A stretch of 11,198 nucleotides of DNA from Thiomargarita sp. (GTDB lineage Bacteria; Pseudomonadota; Gammaproteobacteria; Beggiatoales; Beggiatoaceae), in contig JAUXCJ010000006.1 of assembly GCA_030618965.1 (NCBI GenBank), positions 1 through 11,198 of the forward strand, in the 5' to 3' direction. The position numbers and the translations under genes are program-made. Positions 172-11,198 of the stretch are shown here, one piece after another. Below the pieces are notes generated by a model. The model worked only from the letters and a program-made list of their open reading frames with translations. It was not told where the DNA came from and searched no databases. Position 1 is the stretch's first letter. Each line of letters begins with the position of its first letter.

Positions 172-1482
172 ATGAGAATATCGAGGACTTTGTTTGCTGC
201 TATGTTAATGGCGGCTTCCAGCCAGATAGCTTTAGCTGTACCTTTTATTGATGGCAAGTCCGGTTTGAAGGCGTTAACCACCGGAGAGGAGTTTGAAACG
301 AAGGTGTATTCGGGCAGTGCCGCAGATGGCGATGAGCATGTTATCTATCTGCCGTGGTCCAGACTCCAAGTGATCAAAAAAGAGGGCATTCCAAAATTTA
401 GTTTCGCCTATTCTCGCAAGGGTGCCCTGATGACAACTACACTGAGAGCGACATCTGGCACCAAAGAGGAACTTGATCCCATCATTCAGCAGAAAAGACT
501 GGCTATGATTGCCGATGGTATTCCGGCTGAGAAAATCCAGATTGCGGAATTGCCCGTGCATAGTGGGGTTTATAGTTCTACCTTGAATATGAAAGGGGTG
601 GGCGAATTCATCATTGCGACAACGGAAGTTAAAAACAGCATTCCTTCCAATGAAGTGGCCCTATCTATGCTGATGGGAAGAGCGGCGGCTGATCTGGTGG
701 TAATGGGCTTAAACAGTCCGAATACGGCACTGGGGTTTAACTACACCTATGATTTCCCGGGCAGAACCACACCCTACCGTGCCCAAGTCAAAATTCATTG
801 GTCCAGTGTGTACAGCTATATAAGAAAGCAGTTTGGTTTTACCCATATTGCTGGCTCTTATCAGGTCGATGAAATAACAAGGAAGTTGACTGAAGAGAAG
901 GCCATTGAAATTGTCACCATTCAAGGAGATACCGACAAAATTTGGGATAAACTGATTAGCGATATTTCCAAGATTATCATTGCTAGGACCTTCAAGGCCC
1001 ATCATCCCAAACCAAACACGCAAAAACTTAAGTTGCCAAAAGCACAGAACAAGTGGGTGGCTAATTTTATCTTGGGAAAAGGGGGGAGTGGTATGAGTAG
1101 TGGCTGGAATGTTGGGGTGAGTGCTGCCTATTCGCTTGTCAAGATGAAATCGTCAGAGCAGGTGACTGAAACCATTAATATTACAGCACACCCCTATAGA
1201 GTTTCTACTGCCACAGCCGGGGTGCAAATTGAGGGATACTGCAATAAGTACCCGGATATGTTTCACTATCAAGGTGATTATGATCCCACAAGAAACGCTT
1301 ACCGTATTGAAGAAGGTTGTCCAGATCATATTTATGGAGATACTCCCCCACTTAGCCAACAGAAACAGCCTAGCAGTAATGCTGTTGCAGTGGGTCAAAC
1401 AGGCACCACACCGCCTCCAGGTGATAAATCTGTGCTTGATCAAAAGGTTGAACAACAGAAGGACGACTTTTTCAACAACTAA
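172..1482 (+). CDS. exported protein, YxP-strand paralog family, long form
   Basis: 436 aa, function not recognised. The start has an AAAGAGG ribosome site nine bases upstream. Residues 1-22 are a Sec signal peptide ending ALA before VPF, so the product is periplasmic or secreted. Residues 56-92 hold the family signature: the strand IYLPW (58-62), then KFSFAY and ALMTTTL. A helical stretch (97-120) and the ELPVHSGVY strand follow. Residues 153-163 (VKNSIPSNEV) match gene 5 closely. Residues 200-345 form a middle region also present, diverged, in gene 4 but missing from gene 5. It includes a Gly/Ser-rich turn (GKGGSGMSSG, 302-311). A GYC motif at 355-357 pairs with C383 as a likely disulfide. 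The tail is Pro/Gln-rich and low in complexity. It is the first gene of the cluster and is followed by a hairpin. The gene call is secure; the role is unknown, perhaps structural in the envelope. Confidence 0.9.
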   Translation: MRISRTLFAAMLMAASSQIALAVPFIDGKSGLKALTTGEEFETKVYSGSAADGDEHVIYLPWSRLQVIKKEGIPKFSFAYSRKGALMTTTLRATSGTKEELDPIIQQKRLAMIADGIPAEKIQIAELPVHSGVYSSTLNMKGVGEFIIATTEVKNSIPSNEVALSMLMGRAAADLVVMGLNSPNTALGFNYTYDFPGRTTPYRAQVKIHWSSVYSYIRKQFGFTHIAGSYQVDEITRKLTEEKAIEIVTIQGDTDKIWDKLISDISKIIIARTFKAHHPKPNTQKLKLPKAQNKWVANFILGKGGSGMSSGWNVGVSAAYSLVKMKSSEQVTETINITAHPYRVSTATAGVQIEGYCNKYPDMFHYQGDYDPTRNAYRIEEGCPDHIYGDTPPLSQQKQPSSNAVAVGQTGTTPPPGDKSVLDQKVEQQKDDFFNN

Positions 1483-1492
1483 TTAATATTCA

Positions 1493-1523
1493 GGTGATGA
1501 CGGGTTTTATAACCCGCATCACC
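1493..1523 (+). promoter_or_regulatory. intercistronic hairpin after gene 1
   Basis: GGTGATG pairs with CATCACC and CGGGTT pairs with AACCCG, giving a 13-bp stem with one bulged A and a TTAT loop. It begins 10 nt after the stop codon of gene 1. No T-run follows (ATCTTATTC), so it is a poor intrinsic terminator. A transcript-stabilising or attenuating hairpin between gene 1 and the rest of the cluster is more likely. Confidence 0.55.
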
Positions 1524-1545
1524 ATCTTATTCAAAACGGAATTAG

Positions 1546-2415
1546 ATGATTTTTTTTCCTTATAAATTATTGTTTTTTAATTTGTTTTTAACTGTAATTA
1601 TTTCAGTTTTATCCGTTAACCCTGTCGTTGCCGAAAATTTTTTGGATGAGCCGAGTAAACATGATGAACTTTCCGAAGAAAAAGCCAAACAGCAGAAAGC
1701 ATTTGTTTATGAGCAGGGCGAAAGCCGGTTGCATAACAAATGTCTAGCAAACTTCAACCGTGGAAAAGCGTGCCACGCGCTGCTTAATAGGCTCTGTAAT
1801 CGGATTCAAAATAAAAACACAGAATGTCGGCTATTACGTGTCGAACAATGCCATAAAAACTACAGAAAGGATCAGACAAAAGCAGAAAAAACTTGTAAAC
1901 ATGGATCGCATGATGACCCTTGTTATGGCATCAATCAAAAATGTCAATATGAAGAATGGTTCGCCTGCAAGGAAACCAATTATCAGTTACGATTCTGCCC
2001 TTACTATAAGTGGCAATATTGTAGAGGGGTCGTTGGCAAACAAAATGGCGAATTTAAAACCAAGGATTGTCGGGTTTTTCATAACAAAGAAATGATCAAA
2101 TTTTATGAGCGCAAGATTAGCAAAGCCCTGCAATGGCAACCCCGTGGTGAAAATAATATTGAACAATCATTGGTATTGATGAAAGCACAGCGAAGACAGA
2201 TGCGTGAACAATTGGCCAAGATCAAAAAGCAAGAAAAAAGCCTACAAGGTTTAATTGGAAAATTGGCTGGAAAATTTGTCAAAAAACTGAAAAAACAGCA
2301 AAGGGAGCTTAAAAAACAAAAAAGGCGGCTTAGGGACAAAATTCGTAAACTCAATAAACAGATTGATGAATACGCTTATATGGGCGGCTTATGCAAAAAA
2401 TTTGGACCTTATTAG
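1546..2415 (+). CDS. exported Cys-rich protein with C-terminal basic coiled coil
   Basis: 289 aa, not recognised. The start is preceded by ACGGAA five bases upstream. Residues 1-29 form a very hydrophobic signal peptide (Phe/Leu-rich, ending PVVA before ENF). The mature protein has 13 cysteines. Twelve fall within roughly residues 66-175 in pairs such as CHALLNRLC and CYGINQKC, which suggests a disulfide-stabilised helical domain. Residues from about 205 to 275 are almost all K, Q, R, E and L with heptad-like spacing, a long basic coiled coil. The protein ends in a last Cys and GPY. A strongly basic coiled coil on an exported protein suggests binding to an acidic polymer or assembly with a partner. 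It sits between two strong hairpins, 63 nt after gene 1 and 73 nt before gene 3. The gene is real; the function is inference only. Confidence 0.85.
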   Translation: MIFFPYKLLFFNLFLTVIISVLSVNPVVAENFLDEPSKHDELSEEKAKQQKAFVYEQGESRLHNKCLANFNRGKACHALLNRLCNRIQNKNTECRLLRVEQCHKNYRKDQTKAEKTCKHGSHDDPCYGINQKCQYEEWFACKETNYQLRFCPYYKWQYCRGVVGKQNGEFKTKDCRVFHNKEMIKFYERKISKALQWQPRGENNIEQSLVLMKAQRRQMREQLAKIKKQEKSLQGLIGKLAGKFVKKLKKQQRELKKQKRRLRDKIRKLNKQIDEYAYMGGLCKKFGPY

Positions 2416-2431
2416 TAACTACACGCCACAG

Positions 2432-2460
2432 TTCGTAGGCGATTTATCGCCTACTACGAA
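2432..2460 (+). promoter_or_regulatory. intercistronic hairpin between genes 2 and 3
   Basis: TTCGTAGGCGAT pairs with ATCGCCTACTACGAA, giving 12 bp with a three-base bulge and a two-base centre. It lies 16 nt after the stop of gene 2. No T-run follows directly. It could be a weak terminator, an RNA-processing site or a dispersed palindromic repeat. It also argues against starting gene 3 further upstream, because that reading would translate through the palindrome. Confidence 0.5.
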
Positions 2461-2488
2461 TGCTTTCGAGACAAAAGTTTTAATCACC

Positions 2489-5218
2489 ATGATACGTAAT
2501 ATCACAACCACAATTATCTACACCCTCCTGATAAGCAATACCGCCATTAGCCAAGCCACCGAATATGGAGGATACTGGCAATGCATAACCCAATCACTGC
2601 CAGAATTGCTATTCAAACCCCGGGTTAGACGCATGACTATTGGCTCGCTGGATTGCTTTGAACTTGACCAAATTGAAACCGTCAAGGGTATCGCAGCAAC
2701 CACACAAAACCGTCAAAATGACGTTTGTCGTGCTTATGCCAACTTGACCGAATCCTGTCGGGATTATTTGACAAGCTGCAATAATGACTATATTGCCTGT
2801 CAAGCTGCCTTAGAAAATACAATGAATTGTATTCCCTACGTGAGCGAAGCCAATACTTTACTCAAATCGGCTGGAGTTAATACCGCCAAACGGCTGATTG
2901 ACTCTACGCTTAAATTTAGGCAACAAGCCCAATTCTGTGTCGAAGGGACAGAATATGTCGAAAAAAAGCCCCCGCTTTGGTGGGATCGCTTTTGTAATGA
3001 TTACAATGTTGGTCCAATTTCATTTTATGAGCTCAATGAATATTACTATGAAGTTGAAGAATCTGGACAAAGAGCCGAATTGCTACGCCGATATGCGATG
3101 GCTGATCCCGCGACAGACAGCTGGAAAAGATTAATAGTCACCATGATGGGCTTAGAATCTCTCGATTCCGAAGATGCCAATGAACGGGCTGCTGCTGCCA
3201 AAGTACTTGGTCCTCATGGAGATTTCTCTACACCGATTATGTATAAACTACTATCAGCATTGGACGACTCAGAGCCGGGAGTACGCGCTAACGCAGCTTT
3301 AAGCTTGCGAGTGCAGGGCAATCGTAAATCACTGGTGGTGATCTCATTATTGTCCAAATTACTGGATAGCGAAGAAACGCCCGAAGTACGGGGCAATGCC
3401 GCCTTGGCACTGAGAGAACAAGCCACAAACTATCCTTGTAAATCGCATGAAGAAGCCCGTTATTGCTTAGAGGGCAACGAAGATCCCAATGACTTAGTGA
3501 GCGGAGTCCCCACTTGCGTACCTTATGATCAGGCTGCCCATGATCGGGCGGAAAAAGAAGAAGATTGGTGGGGTGAAGATGCCCAAGATAAGGAGCACTG
3601 TGAAACTCCGTTTGCAAATCTTTTTGACAGGATAGCCAAAATCAAAGATTTCAACATTATTGATAATCTTTGTTATGTCGGAGTAAAAATGCGCCAGTCG
3701 AAAATCATGCCTATCGTCAAACAAGCCCTATTGATGGTACTACAGGCTGAAGATGATCCAGTGGCTAGGGCAAAAATGGTGGCAGCGATGAGAAATATCG
3801 GCAAACCAGTGAATGGTGATGATACCATTCTCCAATTGCTTCGCTTTCAATATTTGACGGATTCTGATTATCGGGTGAGACGGGCGGCTATTTTTGCCTT
3901 GGCGCGGGCTGCTAAAAACGAGGATTGGTTGCTTAAAGATGTGATCCCTCAAGCACTACAAGATGAATCCGCCTCCGTGAGAAAAGCCGCTATTGCTGCC
4001 GCCAGTGAATTGATCGTTCTGAGTATGTCAAAAAAGGATGCTGCCTATCAAGCTTATGTGAACGGTATGACATTTCATAATTCACAAGCCACCGATTGCC
4101 AATCCTCAGCCAAAACCAATCCTAAAGATTCCACACCGGTGGGACCGATTGAGTCAAAATTTTATACCGAGGGTTATAAAGCGGCCTACCTTTTTTATCA
4201 AGACAAGTGTGATGAGTCAGGAAAACCGGTATTGGCCTTTTCAAAACCAGCAATGGGCGCACAAGAAATTTCAAGGCGTACCGATATTGCTTTGCATTTT
4301 TTGGCTCCGGTTGCTAAAGGGATGATTACTTCAAAAATTCGATTATATGGTCCTAAAAAAGCGGTTATTCCTTATACTATCAAGGAATATAAACGCGCTC
4401 CAAAAAAACGCTTTACTTCGGTGGTATTGAAGATTGCCCAGCCATTAGCGCCGGATCAGTATTATCAGTTGAAATTTCTGGAGGGTTTTAAATATAAGGA
4501 TGCCCCGGATAATGCGTTTGGCTATGAATATGCCAGAAGTCTCTTATTCAAGACAGTCAGCTCAAAAGTATCTGAAATCATTGCCGCCATGATGACAGAT
4601 GATCCTGATGTCGATGTTCAATATGCTGCGGCGGAGGCTTTTATTGCTAGGAACGAAAATGCTGTGCTTGATTTTATGAGAAATAAATTATTGCAAAATC
4701 CCCCTCGTAACAAGGTACGAGCCGCAACCTACTTAGGCTCGCCTTATTTTACTTATGGGAGTGTACAAAGTCTTAAGGCAGAGGAACGCTTAAGTTTTCT
4801 TATTGATTTGTTAGGAAAACTCAAAAATCACATTATGGAATATGAACGCATGTTGAAAAAAACTGATCCGTCGGTGTTGACAGGCACTAATCCGCCGGCT
4901 GAGGCTTATCTTATAACGCCGGCTCTGGGACAATATTATAATTTTATGCAGGTGCTTTTGAGTAAACCTTGGGTCACACGAGAAATGAAGAAAAAAATAG
5001 ATGAGGCCCTTGACATCCGAGAGTGGATTTTGGAAAAATTCCAAAAAGATTTTCCATTACGCAGCTATACCTATTATGAAAGAATTTATTATGCCGGTAT
5101 TCGCAATACCTTGAAAACAATAATGAACCAGCATTTTATGTCTAAATCAGAACATGGTTCTAAAGATGTGGATTATGTGATCTATCGCAATATCCTGATG
5201 TCTGAGGAAGGCGATTAA
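2489..5218 (+). CDS. exported HEAT-repeat protein
   Basis: 909 aa. I chose the ATG at 2489 over one at 2363 because it opens a clean signal peptide (residues 1-23, ending ISQA). The upstream start would overlap gene 2 and translate the intergenic hairpin. The ribosome site is weak. Residues 77-115 carry a Cys ladder (CRDYLTSC, CNNDYIAC). Three blocks of HEAT-like helices follow, at about 226-311 (DDSEPGVRANAALSLR and SEETPEVRGNAALALRE), 447-512 (DSDYRVRRAAIFALA, DESASVRKAAIAAA) and 700-752 (DPDVDVQYAAAEAF). Each has the D-x-x-x-x-V-R-x-x-A-A-x-A-L pattern known from PBS-lyase-type HEAT repeats. A beta-rich segment (about 595-690) separates blocks two and three, and the C-terminal 150 residues are helical and charged. 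HEAT proteins are usually binding scaffolds, so a scaffold for the co-encoded exported proteins is the natural inference. Confidence 0.88.
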   Translation: MIRNITTTIIYTLLISNTAISQATEYGGYWQCITQSLPELLFKPRVRRMTIGSLDCFELDQIETVKGIAATTQNRQNDVCRAYANLTESCRDYLTSCNNDYIACQAALENTMNCIPYVSEANTLLKSAGVNTAKRLIDSTLKFRQQAQFCVEGTEYVEKKPPLWWDRFCNDYNVGPISFYELNEYYYEVEESGQRAELLRRYAMADPATDSWKRLIVTMMGLESLDSEDANERAAAAKVLGPHGDFSTPIMYKLLSALDDSEPGVRANAALSLRVQGNRKSLVVISLLSKLLDSEETPEVRGNAALALREQATNYPCKSHEEARYCLEGNEDPNDLVSGVPTCVPYDQAAHDRAEKEEDWWGEDAQDKEHCETPFANLFDRIAKIKDFNIIDNLCYVGVKMRQSKIMPIVKQALLMVLQAEDDPVARAKMVAAMRNIGKPVNGDDTILQLLRFQYLTDSDYRVRRAAIFALARAAKNEDWLLKDVIPQALQDESASVRKAAIAAASELIVLSMSKKDAAYQAYVNGMTFHNSQATDCQSSAKTNPKDSTPVGPIESKFYTEGYKAAYLFYQDKCDESGKPVLAFSKPAMGAQEISRRTDIALHFLAPVAKGMITSKIRLYGPKKAVIPYTIKEYKRAPKKRFTSVVLKIAQPLAPDQYYQLKFLEGFKYKDAPDNAFGYEYARSLLFKTVSSKVSEIIAAMMTDDPDVDVQYAAAEAFIARNENAVLDFMRNKLLQNPPRNKVRAATYLGSPYFTYGSVQSLKAEERLSFLIDLLGKLKNHIMEYERMLKKTDPSVLTGTNPPAEAYLITPALGQYYNFMQVLLSKPWVTREMKKKIDEALDIREWILEKFQKDFPLRSYTYYERIYYAGIRNTLKTIMNQHFMSKSEHGSKDVDYVIYRNILMSEEGD

Positions 5219-5233
5219 ATTATTATTTAAATC

Positions 5234-5247
5234 CAAGATTTATCTTG
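5234..5247 (+). promoter_or_regulatory. small hairpin before gene 4
   Basis: CAAGAT and ATCTTG form a perfect 6-bp inverted repeat around TT, followed by an A-run and the GGAGA ribosome site of gene 4. It is too small and AT-rich to be a strong terminator. It is recorded as a possible leader structure. Confidence 0.25.
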
Positions 5248-5267
5248 AAAAAACAATGGAGATTGAC

Positions 5268-6386
5268 ATGAAACGAGCCGTTATTTGGTTAATCGGAGTC
5301 ATTCTGTTATGCGGAGTCAACACTTATAGTTTTGCTTATCCCGTGATGCACGCAAGCGGTGAACAGATAGAACTGGGTACTCCAACCGATAGTGCGACCA
5401 TAATCTTGAGAGATTCAAAGGATAACAGTGTCTATTATATCCCTCCCAAAAGGGTTATTCTGGCAGAAGATCCGCTGACCAAGAGAAAATTATTCCGGTT
5501 AAGCTATTCCTCAGAACGCAAGGACGGTGAATTGTTTGCGGTGTTCAAATTAGGCTTTGATCTGGATAAGGTTGCTGCTGAATGGAAGCGGATTTTAGCC
5601 TCAAACCCGCAGGCCTCGCTTAAAATGTTGCCGATCTTTGGCGGCGTTTTTGGTCTTGAATTTGAAACGGGTGAATTTAAGTTGCTGATTGGTCAAGCTG
5701 AGGTAGTCGAAACGGATATCGTTGCGGGGGTTATTCCAGTCCATATAAAAATTGGTAAAACGGGCTTAAACGTTTTAAGAGCGCATACCCAGATGCCGGG
5801 TAAAAAACTGCTGATCTTGAATTTTGACTATAAAACCAACTACCTATTTCAAGGTCATAATTTTTTGTTCAGCGTCAATCCTCGCCGCTTGCTGGCTGAT
5901 TTTTTAGCTGATTCACTTATTAACGCTGCATGGGAAAAATCAGAACGGTTGGCTAAAACGGAAATCAAAAAATATCTACAGAGAAGCTTTGCTCCGCCCA
6001 AGCCACTTTGGTTTGTCACTAACAATGTTAATCCAGACAATTTTAATCTGAATTTGGCGGCTTATTTGTTTTATCAAGAACTGGAGACTTATTTAAAAGG
6101 CATTGTGGGTGAGTCTTTTAAAATGAATAGCCAAAAAGAGATGCGGGCACTTTCATTAAGTCATATTCCTGAAGAAACAATCACCTTGAAAGGCATTGCG
6201 CCCGGTGAAGTCAAAGCCGTATCCGACTCAGCCGCTATGGTGCTAAGTGGGGTTTGTGAGCATTATGCCGACGCAGTGTTTATTGAGGAGACTGGAGAAT
6301 CCAGATGTTTTGAGTTTCCACTTGGAAAACCCAATGAGCCTAGCAATCAAACTGACAATGAAGATCCTTGGATACCAGATTTTTAA
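5268..6386 (+). CDS. exported protein, YxP-strand paralog family
   Basis: 372 aa, function unknown. An ATG at 5256 is in frame, but the one at 5268 is preferred: GGAGA lies six bases before it, and it gives a standard signal peptide (MKRAVIW to SFA, residues 1-23). Residues 54-95 show the family signature: SVYYIPP, then KLFRLSY and ELFAVFKL. A helix (100-113), the strand MLPIFGG, and a middle region (about 185-300) like that of gene 1 follow, including NFDYKTNYLF, which resembles FNYTYDF in gene 1. Near the C-terminus, SGVC (327-330) and C347 occupy the place of the GYC...GC pair of genes 1 and 5. The tail is acidic and ends in DPWIPDF. It lies 49 nt after gene 3 and 18 nt before gene 5, so it is probably co-transcribed with both. 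The gene call is strong and the family assignment moderate. Confidence 0.88.
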   Translation: MKRAVIWLIGVILLCGVNTYSFAYPVMHASGEQIELGTPTDSATIILRDSKDNSVYYIPPKRVILAEDPLTKRKLFRLSYSSERKDGELFAVFKLGFDLDKVAAEWKRILASNPQASLKMLPIFGGVFGLEFETGEFKLLIGQAEVVETDIVAGVIPVHIKIGKTGLNVLRAHTQMPGKKLLILNFDYKTNYLFQGHNFLFSVNPRRLLADFLADSLINAAWEKSERLAKTEIKKYLQRSFAPPKPLWFVTNNVNPDNFNLNLAAYLFYQELETYLKGIVGESFKMNSQKEMRALSLSHIPEETITLKGIAPGEVKAVSDSAAMVLSGVCEHYADAVFIEETGESRCFEFPLGKPNEPSNQTDNEDPWIPDF

Positions 6387-6404
6387 CTTTTCGGAGCTAC
6401 AACT

Positions 6405-7514
6405 ATGAAATTAATAAAACTCATCCTATTAGGGGCAATGTTAGTCTTCAGTATGGCAATATTAGCCGTGCCTGTTCTGCAAAACCCACTGGATAAAGAA
6501 ACTTTATCCAATCCTGACGCGGAAAAAACGCCGCTATTAACTGACAGTACCATGACGGGCAAAGTTACTACCCTCTACTATCCTTGGAATGCGATAAAAA
6601 TCTTGCACAAAAAGGGGACACCTAAAATTTCTTTTACCGCGAGCCCAAAAGGAGTCATGGTAACGGCAACGGTTTTTTTAGATGTTCATAGGCAGCAACT
6701 CAGGGAATCTTTAGACGATTTCAAAGAAACGCATACTGACTGGCAACAAGTCAATTTAGTGCCTATTCATCCAGAAAAAGGCGAATACAGTTTCGCACTT
6801 CGAGCAGCCAGTGGGAAAAGACACTATTTTCCTAATAGCACCGTTGATAACACCATTCCAAAAAATCAAGTTGTTGTCAGTCTCAGTTTAGCTGGAACTG
6901 AGGCGAATGGTTTTGTTGATGCCCTGATGAAAGGTGCTGTCATGGAAATTCATTACCAATACCAGTTCAGCGCGTTAATCAATGCTCAAAATACCCATAC
7001 ACAGCCAGTTCAAGTACACAGTAAGATTGAGCTAAATGGGTATTGTGACGCATTTCCACGGCATTTCAATTACCAGTTATTAAAGGGGGGGCAGTTTGAA
7101 CAAGGTTGCCTGCCTGACATGGAAGTGACTAACTTGTCTGAGAGATTAACGCATCAACAGATTTGTGAAATTTTGCCAGAATTTTGCAAGCCAGCACCAA
7201 CGATGGCAAGCCGTGAAAAACCGGAAAAATCATCGGATGCTGAGTATTGTCTGATGTTTCCTGATGATATAAAATGCCAGAAACCTAAGATGGCAAAGGG
7301 GGGTATTAGTTCGTTTTATAAAGACATAGAGACGATGAAAGAGATTTGTGAAACAGACGAACCTAACTCTTCAAAATGTGTTATGTGGAAAAAAATAGAG
7401 ACTGAATTTGCGTCCTGCTTTTTCAATCCAGAATGTCATACGTTCAACATAAGTATTTCAGAAGAAAAGATAAATGGCGAAGAAGATATTAATAGCGAAA
7501 TTGACCAACAATAG
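6405..7514 (+). CDS. exported protein, YxP-strand paralog family, short form with Cys-pair tail
   Basis: 369 aa. GGAG lies eight bases before the ATG. The signal peptide is residues 1-21 (ending ILA before VPV). It is the closest relative of gene 1 in the window: YYPWNAIKILHKKGTPKISF (58-77) matches YLPWSRLQVIKKEGIPKFSF, VDNTIPKNQV (147-156) matches VKNSIPSNEV, and NGYC (211-214) with GC at 234-235 matches the disulfide-like pair. It lacks the roughly 130-residue middle region of gene 1. Instead it has a unique C-terminal extension with four close Cys pairs (C254/C261, C282/C291, C315/C325, C338/C344). Two of these share the pattern C-x2/3-[LF]-P-[ED]-x-x-(K)-C with a following K/Q-x-P. It is probably a periplasmic or secreted disulfide-bonded protein. 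The function is not known. Confidence 0.9.
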   Translation: MKLIKLILLGAMLVFSMAILAVPVLQNPLDKETLSNPDAEKTPLLTDSTMTGKVTTLYYPWNAIKILHKKGTPKISFTASPKGVMVTATVFLDVHRQQLRESLDDFKETHTDWQQVNLVPIHPEKGEYSFALRAASGKRHYFPNSTVDNTIPKNQVVVSLSLAGTEANGFVDALMKGAVMEIHYQYQFSALINAQNTHTQPVQVHSKIELNGYCDAFPRHFNYQLLKGGQFEQGCLPDMEVTNLSERLTHQQICEILPEFCKPAPTMASREKPEKSSDAEYCLMFPDDIKCQKPKMAKGGISSFYKDIETMKEICETDEPNSSKCVMWKKIETEFASCFFNPECHTFNISISEEKINGEEDINSEIDQQ

Positions 7515-8934: not shown

Positions 8935-10131
8935 ATGATCAAAGCAAGTTTCGGAAAAGTGGTTAGACTGTGGCTATTAGTTGCCATTCTGATAATGCCA
9001 CAAGCTGGAGTCGCTGAATCGCCTCTCGGTATTGCGGTTGATGTCGTGATTCACGAGGGGCGGTTTGTGATTTTTTATCTGACAAATTTCTATGAAGATA
9101 AAGCGTTTCGCTGTCCTTTTATTCGGGTTCGAGCCACGGTGAAAGATCGTCAGGGTAATATTGTTGCACTGCGTAGCATCACTGCGCGGAACGTGGCACT
9201 GCCAGCCGGTTCCCGGGAAAAACAAGAGGAAGTTGGCAAAGAGATTATTCAAAAACTAGAACTCCAGTTTGATCAGCCGCGTATCGTGGATGTTAGCGAT
9301 CCCTATCACAATTGTCAAAGTATCCAGACTACTCCCCCACCGCCTGTTACACCGCCACCTTTACCAAATAATTTCTTAGCCGGTAAAGTCTTCCGTGATC
9401 GTTTAAAGGATGGTAGCCTAGGCCCTGAAATGGTTAGAATCCCTGCGGGTTCTTTTAGAATGGGCGATATTCAAGGCAGTGGCTTTTCTAATGAAAAGCC
9501 AGTTCATAAGGTATCAGTTGGTGCTTTTGCTATAGGCAAGTATGAGGTCACGTTTGCTGAATATGATAAATTTGCTCAAGCTACGGGTAAAAGTAAACCA
9601 AGTGATTCAGGTTGGGGGCGTGGCAATCGTCCTGTAATTAGAGTGTTTTGGGATGATGCCACAGCTTATGCATCGTGGTTAAGCAAACAAACTGGGAAAA
9701 AATACCGCTTGCCAACTGAAGCCGAATGGGAATATGCAGCTCGTGCTGGGACGGAGACTAAGTATTGGTGGGGTAATAGGGCCTCTCACGATTATATGAA
9801 TTATGGTACAGAGGAATGTTGTGATGGTTTTGCAAAGGGTAAAGACCGTTGGAAGTACACTGCTCCCGTAGGCTCTTTCGGGGCGAATCCATTTGGGTTG
9901 CATGATGTGCATGGCAATGTATTAGAGTGGGTTTCCGATATATATAGTAGAGACTACTACAGTAGCTCCCCCCGTAGTAACCCTAAAGGCCCTAGTACCG
10001 GTCGGTATCGCGTGTTACGCGGGAGCTCGTGGGACTTCACCGCGCGGCTCGCAGGGGTGGCGACTCGCGGCGTCGGTCCCGATTCCCTCCGCTACTACTC
10101 CATTGGCTTCCGCCTGTTGAGGCAACCTTGA
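8935..10131 (+). CDS. exported FGE/C-type-lectin protein, putative DGR target
   Basis: 398 aa. A signal peptide (residues 1-27, ending GVA) is followed by a small beta-rich domain (about 30-130) and a proline-rich linker (134-144). An FGE-sulfatase/SUMF1-type domain runs from about 161 to 396. Family motifs are clear: MVRIPAGSFRMGD (166-178), YRLPTEAEWEYAARAG (257-272), NPFGLHDVHGNVLEWVSDIY (318-337), RVLRGSSW (359-366) and IGFRLL (390-395). The two cysteines used by formylglycine-generating enzymes align with F368 and A373, so it should not be an active enzyme; the C-type-lectin fold is probably used for binding. Codons from 367 on are GC-rich and mostly NNY, as expected for a DGR variable region. 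The ribosome site is weak. It lies 12 nt after gene 6, last in the cluster, and is probably the recognition subunit of whatever the cluster builds. Confidence 0.93.
   Translation: MIKASFGKVVRLWLLVAILIMPQAGVAESPLGIAVDVVIHEGRFVIFYLTNFYEDKAFRCPFIRVRATVKDRQGNIVALRSITARNVALPAGSREKQEEVGKEIIQKLELQFDQPRIVDVSDPYHNCQSIQTTPPPPVTPPPLPNNFLAGKVFRDRLKDGSLGPEMVRIPAGSFRMGDIQGSGFSNEKPVHKVSVGAFAIGKYEVTFAEYDKFAQATGKSKPSDSGWGRGNRPVIRVFWDDATAYASWLSKQTGKKYRLPTEAEWEYAARAGTETKYWWGNRASHDYMNYGTEECCDGFAKGKDRWKYTAPVGSFGANPFGLHDVHGNVLEWVSDIYSRDYYSSSPRSNPKGPSTGRYRVLRGSSWDFTARLAGVATRGVGPDSLRYYSIGFRLLRQP
10012..10131 (+). other. putative DGR variable region at the 3' end of gene 7
   Basis: Bases 10021-10080 contain 46 G/C of 60, against 32 of 60 at 9721-9780 in the same gene. 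Of the 23 codons from 10033 to 10101, 17 end in a pyrimidine (14 in C), and they encode D, F, T, L, R, G, V, P, S and Y with no K, Q, E, M or N. This is the pattern expected when AAY codons of a template repeat are randomised at adenines by a DGR reverse transcriptase. The constant blocks around it (RVLRG, SW, IGFRLL) match the conserved core of the lectin fold. The likely priming (IMH-like) end is the GC-rich stretch around 10102-10125. No template repeat or reverse transcriptase is in the window, so this is not proven. Boundaries are approximate. Confidence 0.72.
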
Positions 10132-10181: not shown

Positions 10182-10204
10182 TGAACTAGCCTGCTTGGGC
10201 TTGG

Positions 10205-10233
10205 TTGAGTGTGCGCGTGAGCCGCGTACTCAA
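10205..10233 (+). other. GC-rich hairpin behind the variable region
   Basis: TTGAGT pairs with ACTCAA and CGCG with CGCG across a 3x1 internal loop, with TGAGC as the apical loop. It lies about 75 nt downstream of the gene 7 stop, followed by a GC-rich stretch and a T7 run (10255-10261). DGR variable regions are known to need a hairpin or cruciform downstream in some systems, and this is a candidate. The alternative is a terminator for the cluster, because the T-run lies about 20 nt further on. Confidence 0.45.
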
Positions 10234-10268
10234 GCGGGCGGCGCCAGGGGCAGGTTTTTTTGTGGGCA

Positions 10269-10286
10269 GGACGGGCTTGCCCGTCC
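10269..10286 (+). other. perfect GC-rich palindrome
   Basis: GGACGGGC and GCCCGTCC form a perfect 8-bp inverted repeat around TT. GGGCAGG occurs just before it at 10264 and also at 10249. No T-run follows. It marks the end of the GC-rich block; the sequence is AT-rich from about 10300. It is a candidate dispersed palindromic repeat or part of the DGR flank. Confidence 0.45.
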
Positions 10287-10349
10287 ACAAGTGTAAGCTA
10301 AATTCGCAAGGGCTGTTATTTGGTTTTGATTGTTTTTTGGAGAAAATAA

Positions 10350-10470
10350 ATGCTAACGAATCTTAAACTTACGCTTTAGTACGGCACTGGATGCTTTTGA
10401 TGATACGCTGTTAGTGGATTTCATTAAGGATAAAGCTGTACTCTCATTGCGCCAGTATCAGAAGGCATAG
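10350..10470 (+). pseudogene. frameshifted short reading frame, remnant
   Basis: A good ribosome site (GGAG, eight bases upstream) precedes ATG 10350, which opens MLTNLKLTL and then stops at TAG 10377. From 10357, in another frame, an uninterrupted 37-codon stretch runs to TAG 10470 and reads like real protein (FSTALDAFDDTLLVDFIKDK, then a basic tail ending QYQKA). Joining the two needs one frameshift near 10370-10380. It may be the decayed end of a larger gene or a small broken gene. I do not recognise the family. It is too short to be sure it was ever coding. Confidence 0.35.
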
Positions 10471-10475
10471 CATTC

Positions 10476-10599
10476 TTAGGTTTTCCTATTTTTCTTGGGT
10501 TAATTCGCCTGAACCGCCGGCGGCGAAAACGATGCCGACGATTAGCCTGGATTTGAAGTGCCAACCAAAACATTTGAACCGGATTAAATCAAAACCTAA
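10476..10599. repeat. weak inverted-repeat element with central palindrome
   Basis: TTAGGTTTT (10476-10484) and AAAACCTAA (10591-10599) are inverted 9-mers about 106 bases apart. Between them lie a perfect 10-bp palindrome, CCGCCGGCGG (10514-10523), and the arms TTCGCC/GGCGAA (10504-10509, 10522-10527). There is no open frame and no clear target duplication. It could be a small non-autonomous element or chance. The rest of 10300-10683 is otherwise plain AT-rich spacer. Confidence 0.2.
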
Positions 10600-10621
10600 A
10601 ACAGATTTTTTCGTGTGACTT

Positions 10622-10641
10622 GTGTTTAATCGTGTTTAATC
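10622..10641 (+). repeat. tandem 10-mer upstream of the last gene
   Basis: GTGTTTAATC occurs twice in direct contact, followed by an AGATATCT palindrome. It lies 45 nt before the start codon of the last gene, so a regulator-binding site is possible. Replication slippage is equally likely. Confidence 0.3.
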
Positions 10642-10686
10642 TTAGATATCTTAGTAAATCTTGTTCAGCAGATATAGAGAATAATG

Positions 10687-11198
10687 ATGAAAAAAGCAAG
10701 TTTTAAAACAGAGTTATGCTTACTGGTTATTGCCTTACTTAGCAGCTTGATATCCTTTCCTGCTTTAAGTTTTGCATTAGATTGTAATAGTCCATATCCG
10801 CCTTCAGGCCCCTGTATTGAATGTACAGTAAAATTTAGCAATCCGCTTCAATTACTAGAGGCACCACCTCTTTACTGGGATATTTGCAAAGGAGAGGACG
10901 CAGAAACGAAGATTGTCTATTTCTTGCCCACAAGTATTTCCCCGATTATCAAGCGTGGTAAACCTGCCCAACGGCTCAGGACACTGGCTAATGGTGACTT
11001 GAAATTGATTGCAACGCTAAACTATCATCCGTGGGGGAAAGACTCTGAGATTAATCAATCCTCCTTGATCAGGGAGTTAAGAACTCAGTATAAGCGTTTA
11101 AGAATAAGACCCATTATCCCTTTGCAATATGAATCAAAGTTTTACGGCAATATCAATGATTGGATCAAAAAGGTCAAAATTTGGAGCAGACCTTCTGG
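10687..11198 (+). CDS. exported protein, YxP-strand paralog family (3' end outside window)
   Basis: At least 170 aa, still open at the window edge. Two ATGs are adjacent (10684, 10687); the second is preferred because TAGAGA ends six bases before it and it gives a typical MKK start. The signal peptide is about residues 1-30 (ending SFA before LDC). The mature N-terminus has four cysteines by residue 67, then the family signature at about 76-81 (IVYFLP), followed by QRLRTL, LKLIATLNY, a helix (EINQSSLIRELRTQYKRLR) and IRPIIPLQYESKFYG. The order of elements and the Cys-rich start are most like gene 6. It is separated from the main cluster by 555 nt and probably has its own promoter. It may begin a second set of the same genes. 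Confidence 0.85.
   Translation, partial: MKKASFKTELCLLVIALLSSLISFPALSFALDCNSPYPPSGPCIECTVKFSNPLQLLEAPPLYWDICKGEDAETKIVYFLPTSISPIIKRGKPAQRLRTLANGDLKLIATLNYHPWGKDSEINQSSLIRELRTQYKRLRIRPIIPLQYESKFYGNINDWIKKVKIWSRPS

Follow-up and report, generated by a model that had tools for sequence, protein, structure and literature searches.

What has become of the diversity-generating retroelement (DGR) to which the GC-rich 3' end of an FGE/lectin-fold gene in a Thiomargarita relative seems to point, and is this gene still being diversified? The gene lies in a stretch of 11,198 nucleotides (the window), which is contig C189 of the draft genome G000 (2.07 Mb in 439 contigs, 59.6% complete). An earlier note on this DNA had read the end of the gene as a DGR variable region (VR) in an exported protein. 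Here we draw on comparisons with related genomes, above all Candidatus Thiomargarita nelsonii (genome G018, which we infer to be the Hydrate Ridge genome), to examine the VR, the DNA beside it and the reverse transcriptases (RTs) that could act on it.

The target gene and its variable region

The DGR target gene (8935..10131, forward strand) is an ORF of 398 aa whose product consists of a signal-like N-terminal stretch, an N-terminal domain, a proline-rich linker and an FGE-sulfatase/C-type-lectin domain. A Pfam profile search matches PF03781 to residues 164-396 (E 1.8e-57) and the solved Treponema denticola variable protein 2y3c matches by sequence (E 4.1e-18), which together show the VR to sit at the 3' end of a gene with a C-type-lectin fold; an AlphaFold model of the protein has a mean pLDDT of 60.6 and is poor around the VR. 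The N-terminus, judged by eye, resembles a signal peptide, and the protein is probably exported. The gene is still open and most likely encodes one variant of a putative binding protein. Signal-like N-termini were also seen by eye in the window genes at 172-7514 and 10684-11196; among the genes at 172-7514 a Pfam match over the cut-off occurs only in the 2363-5218 gene (HEAT repeats), and the genes at 172 and 6405 are distant paralogues (24%).

In an ungapped comparison with the T. nelsonii template the VR spans 9997..10126 (forward strand), with a hypervariable core at about 10033-10101; the constant 3' end of the VR, at about 10105-10120, is presumed to be the homing start site. The earlier note had drawn the region at 10012..10131, which is the right place with a slightly displaced boundary, as similarity to the template runs from about 9997 to about 10120. 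The rise in GC that it described is exact to the base (46 of 60 at 10021-10080 vs 32 of 60 at 9721-9780); 46 is also the highest count of any 60-base stretch in the window, and GC3 climbs from 0.37 in the first 355 codons to 0.84 in codons 360-396. Its argument from codons of the form NNY fared less well. The count is right, with 17 NNY among the 23 codons from 10033, but NNY richness alone does not discriminate within this gene: at least 17 such codons are found in 35 of its 377 stretches of 23 codons and the peak, up to 20 per 23, falls around 9931-9943. Because 24 of those 35 equally rich stretches lie outside the claimed region, we dropped NNY richness as an argument for a DGR.

The adenines of the template are more telling. 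The reference template is heterologous, from T. nelsonii contig C260 (a member of another genus), as the template of G000 itself was not recovered. Over 130 ungapped bases, 27 of the template's 37 adenines and 17 of its 93 other bases differ in the window VR, and the core gives a Fisher p of 1.1e-7 against it and of 1e-4 to 0.009 against five other templates of the family. The FGE body upstream, compared between the same two genes as a control, differs at 48 of 153 adenines and 116 of 360 other bases and thus shows no overall preference for adenines. When the VR of C260 is set against the C260 template (core, gapped), 15 of 27 adenines and 3 of 56 other bases differ. Two results count against our reading. 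Within the window VR, positions 10078-10090 have no clean alignment to the T. nelsonii template, and another FGE tail of the same genome, on contig C125, shows an adenine excess with the C260 template (p 0.007) and none with the other five templates (p 0.21 to 0.8).

The VR is also poorly conserved. The earlier note had named conservation of these codons in related strains as a point against a DGR; across all 22 relatives in our alignment (A1) the VR retains 8-13 of 30 identities and the gene body 53 to 74%, which leaves the DGR reading unrefuted. T. nelsonii has a syntenic locus (L133), where orthologues of the window genes at 6405, 7552, 8935 and 10684 follow one another in the same order. 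Its target orthologue is identical to the window protein at 130 of 201 residues of the FGE body, 56 of 96 of the N-terminal domain and 12 of 30 of the VR; judged by eye, the VR of this locus belongs to the other template type. The distance between the end of the FGE gene and residue 26 of the 10684 gene is 303 bases in this locus vs 627 in the window, and a search of the locus for RT and HRDC matches found none. In Parabeggiatoa HSG14 (L136, 213-2213) two consecutive FGE genes, one of them a target orthologue, precede a relative of the window gene at 172.

Relics of a cassette beside the gene

Relics of two DGR genes lie 3' of the VR, share its strand and are arranged as in the T. nelsonii cassette; they were detected only with the relative's proteins as queries. 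The nearer one is the 5' end of an HRDC-type accessory gene (10354..10460, 3' limit approximate, with an ATG at 10350), which is frameshifted by a 2-base gap in the DNA alignment; the HRDC protein of T. nelsonii contig C3 matches window positions 10354-10473 at 73% (E 3.4e-12) with one TAG and one TAA inside. The other is a piece of a DGR RT (10434..10541) that covers RT residues about 228-263 of 313 and is identical to the T. nelsonii RT at 25 of 36; when that RT was run against 57 genomes, the window match (10428-10541, 66%, E 7.7e-8, one TAA) appeared besides the full RTs. The HRDC relic was found independently of the RT relic. At the DNA level, 63 of 79 bases (80%) at 10440-10518 are identical to the T. 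nelsonii RT gene, and the cassette spacer at 10232-10430 aligns to the stretch that precedes this gene.

The relics overlap in a manner that suggests how the cassette was broken. Against contig C3, the DNA match ends at C3 base 180 and resumes at 1761, over which the window advances by about ten bases. The implied deletion, about 1.6 kb long, would have left the beginning of the HRDC gene joined to the late portion of the RT gene. The sequence around the junction, at about 10440-10460, aligns to either gene and so suggests a deletion at short homology (the common stretch is about 12-20 bases). A template relic was sought in 10542-10700 and gave no signal, since shuffled sequence scored at least as well in 104 of 200 trials on one strand and in 42 of 200 on the other. 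We judge the local cassette very probably dead. The earlier identification of a DGR variable region in an FGE/lectin-fold protein nevertheless gains from these remains: with adenine-specific differences from a relative's template in the VR and RT and HRDC relics beside the gene, we hardly doubt that the VR is of DGR origin.

Two structural elements separate the VR from the relics. A terminator-like stem-loop followed by a T run (10186..10262, forward strand) has a DNA fold z-score of -3.0, and a longer stem-loop with a similar loop precedes the cassette genes of T. nelsonii (z-score -8.6). The palindrome GGACGGGCTTGCCCGTCC (10269-10286, strandless) is a candidate DGR hairpin or cruciform of putative function; a search that allowed up to one mismatch found a single copy in G000, a single copy in T. 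nelsonii, at the corresponding point of the cassette, and no copy in the sister genome G001. In phages, DGR targets are reported to depend on a GC-rich hairpin/cruciform with a 4-nt loop that stands 4-34 bp 3' of the VR (PMC3240598), whereas the window palindrome has a short loop and lies about 150 bases from the VR. Perfect stems of at least 7 occur within 330 bases of seven of the eight RT-adjacent VRs checked (two VRs of locus L125 fall outside this count) and of none of three VRs without a known nearby RT (L035, L037, L115), against a hand estimate, made without a shuffle control, of about 0.14 per 330 bases. The sole stem-less one of the eight is the VR of T. nelsonii C260, where a transposase gene intervenes.

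Frozen or still diversified

If the local cassette is dead, the VR could be rewritten only by an RT elsewhere in the genome. The assembled 59.6% of G000 holds three DGR-type RT sequences, all broken, and no intact one by the RVT_1 profile or by relatives' RT queries. Besides the window relic, these are a fragment on contig C77, below the RVT_1 cut-off and recognised by RT query (63% over query residues 99-212, in a frame of 117 aa), and one on contig C261. The C77 piece (L114, 27-350, minus strand) is a middle RT fragment at a contig end with unrelated sequence on both sides. On C261 (L116, 3894-3272, minus strand) lies a broken second DGR of another type: an Avd-like piece, the N-terminal part of an RT and a further short, weak RT match stand upstream of an FGE gene whose tail is VR-like. 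Two further RVT_1 matches were set aside as DGR RTs, L006 being read as group II-like and C191 having a neighbour that is Cas1-like by eye. Template searches of the same assembly with the VR and the T. nelsonii template as queries returned only FGE gene tails and short matches. The working hypervariable system implied by the earlier note therefore finds no support: deletion and frameshift have struck the RT and accessory gene next to the VR, and neither a template nor an intact DGR RT was found in the assembled part.

FGE genes are numerous in this genome, with 22 PF03781 matches. By eye, the tails on C283, C329, C125 and C223 resemble the window tail and those on C261, C107, C180 and C164 resemble templates of the genomes G017 and G028; the tails on C99 and C57 are doubtful as VR-like. 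The C283 gene has an internal TGA, and on C329 the frame runs off the end of the contig. The VR-like tail on C329 (L036, about 3276-3415, minus strand) contains about 57 extra bases, inserted in frame within its variable part. In the sister genome G001 (93% complete) a single VR resembles that of the window (L032), and the RVT_1 profile gives three matches: C171 is group II-like by eye, and C405 resembles C191 of G000 in the RT alignment and is not DGR-like. Two DGR RT queries match only C405 in this genome, with C90 matched by neither.

We favour as the probable reading that the window gene is a DGR target orphaned by the decay of its cassette, on the combined evidence of the adenine pattern in the VR and the fossil cassette beside the gene; the VR would most likely be frozen, given that the local RT and template appear to be gone. 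The main competitor is that the VR is alive: the part of G000 missing from the assembly would hold an intact DGR RT with a template, and these would rewrite this gene, and other FGE tails of the genome, in trans. As G000 is 59.6% complete, such a pair may indeed sit in the missing part; the gene is open, its candidate hairpin is kept and found once in the genome, several other FGE tails are VR-like and trans activity has been reported in Thiohalocapsa PB-PSB1 (PMC10907252). We nonetheless consider this rather unlikely, seeing that every DGR-type RT of G000 is broken and that the RT queries find nothing DGR-like in the far more complete sister genome.

Errors of two other kinds, in the assembly or in our interpretation of the tail, are weighed more quickly. 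Repeats such as a template and its VR can break assemblies, and in a draft of 439 contigs the true locus might hold an intact cassette; yet the common stretch at the junction is short, the HRDC start has a separate 2-base gap, and the RT relic is followed by no template and then by the 10684 gene, an orthologue of which also stands after the FGE gene of T. nelsonii, all of which makes a misassembly very unlikely. Still harder to credit is that the tail is the ordinary, fast-evolving C-terminus of an FGE protein and was never a DGR target. FGE tails do vary in general and the NNY richness here is unremarkable, but an ordinary tail would not be expected to combine an adenine-specific pattern, with a clean gene-body control, a GC peak and RT and HRDC relics directly beside the gene.

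The history of an orphaned target might then run as follows. By analogy with known DGRs, the RT would have copied a template repeat, placing random bases opposite its adenines, and the copy would have replaced the 3' end of the FGE/lectin gene, randomising residues about 367-389, where the adenine pattern is observed. Later the deletion of about 1.6 kb would have joined the HRDC start to the late RT part and the template would have been lost; the relics are observed, and their mechanism and order are our reconstruction. The target gene stayed open and would now be fixed on a single variant. A broader possibility, which we hold to be doubtful, is that DGR mutators have collapsed across the genus while a set of variable FGE genes, about nine in number and belonging to two template types, was mostly kept open, as a repertoire of binders that were once random and are now frozen and maintained by selection. 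It is based on the three broken RTs of G000 and on finding no recognisable DGR RT in G001, and it is weakened by the set itself, about nine genes judged by eye, one of them with an internal stop. If it were true, each fossil VR would be the record of a variant worth keeping.

Comparison with known systems

The locus illustrates one route by which a DGR can die, with the target, VR and candidate hairpin surviving and the RT, accessory gene and template lost. Scans that require an RT or template from the genome under study miss orphan VRs of this kind, whereas a relative's template can reveal them, and the comparison of orphan with active VRs could test whether bacteria cease to diversify once a good binder has been found.

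Among 57 genomes (G000 included) the VR query reaches an E of 0.001 or better in three, namely G000, G001 and T. nelsonii. In T. nelsonii C260 the VR ends a long kinase-like and FGE gene (kinase by eye), and the 313-aa RT carries GLPIGNLTSQ and YMDD, which we take to be DGR-type, with an AAC-codon-rich template directly after it. The element on contig C3 consists of an HRDC gene (PF00570, E 2.6e-18), a bAvd-like protein (E 6.4e-6, under the Pfam cut-off), an RT and a template. The window shares with these two elements the cassette order, the palindrome (C260) and homologues of the RT, HRDC gene, template and VR; it differs in that their RT frames are open (314 and 316 codons) and their templates present. 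C260 has itself lost most of its HRDC gene and gained insertions: at 4657-6263 (L034) a transposase gene stands between VR and RT and a stretch ended by inverted repeats stands where the greater part of the HRDC gene would be expected, which marks this element as damaged as well. More widely, 14 DGR RT loci of the family represent 13 distinct ones (L123 and L180 are the same place), and 12 of the 13 have an asparagine-rich FGE template, from which we conclude that FGE DGRs are frequent in these bacteria and that the window is a decayed case; nine of the 13 also show a VR on the stretch available. One locus of Parabeggiatoa HSG14 (L161, 3332-4812) packs an asparagine-rich template and two FGE VRs into about 1.5 kb.

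DGRs in the Beggiatoa group are not new as such, as conflict systems have been described in Beggiatoa and about 80% of the gammaproteobacterial ones of one class accompany a DGR (PMC7159879). Thiohalocapsa PB-PSB1, likewise a gammaproteobacterium, has several DGR loci with FGE targets; transposons have shaped these loci and some of them are incomplete. It differs in that diversification in natural populations is reported there (PMC10907252); that paper names Thiomargarita only in the reference list. The main text of the T. nelsonii genome paper (PMC4853749) does not contain the words 'retroelement' or 'DGR', and an exact-phrase search for orphan or degenerate DGRs in the literature, subscription papers being outside its scope, found nothing.

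The closest precedent is the FGE-type DGR of T. denticola (TvpA, 2y3c), which likewise pairs an FGE/lectin-fold target with an HRDC accessory gene. Isolates of this species that lack RT and template retain FGE targets in which most differences from the templates of other isolates fall at adenines; the authors regard these orphan targets as leftovers of lost DGRs (PMC4891356). The window differs in retaining visible pieces of the RT and HRDC genes, and in its host, a Thiotrichaceae relative of Thiomargarita. Degraded DGRs have also been described in cyanobacteria, where a variable protein with remnant template-VR homology survives without a nearby RT and a lone RT is left with none of the other parts (PMC7517822); the hosts and targets are others and no RT remnant is reported beside the orphan target. 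The window locus is thus an addition to the known orphan and degraded DGRs, with precedents in T. denticola and cyanobacteria.
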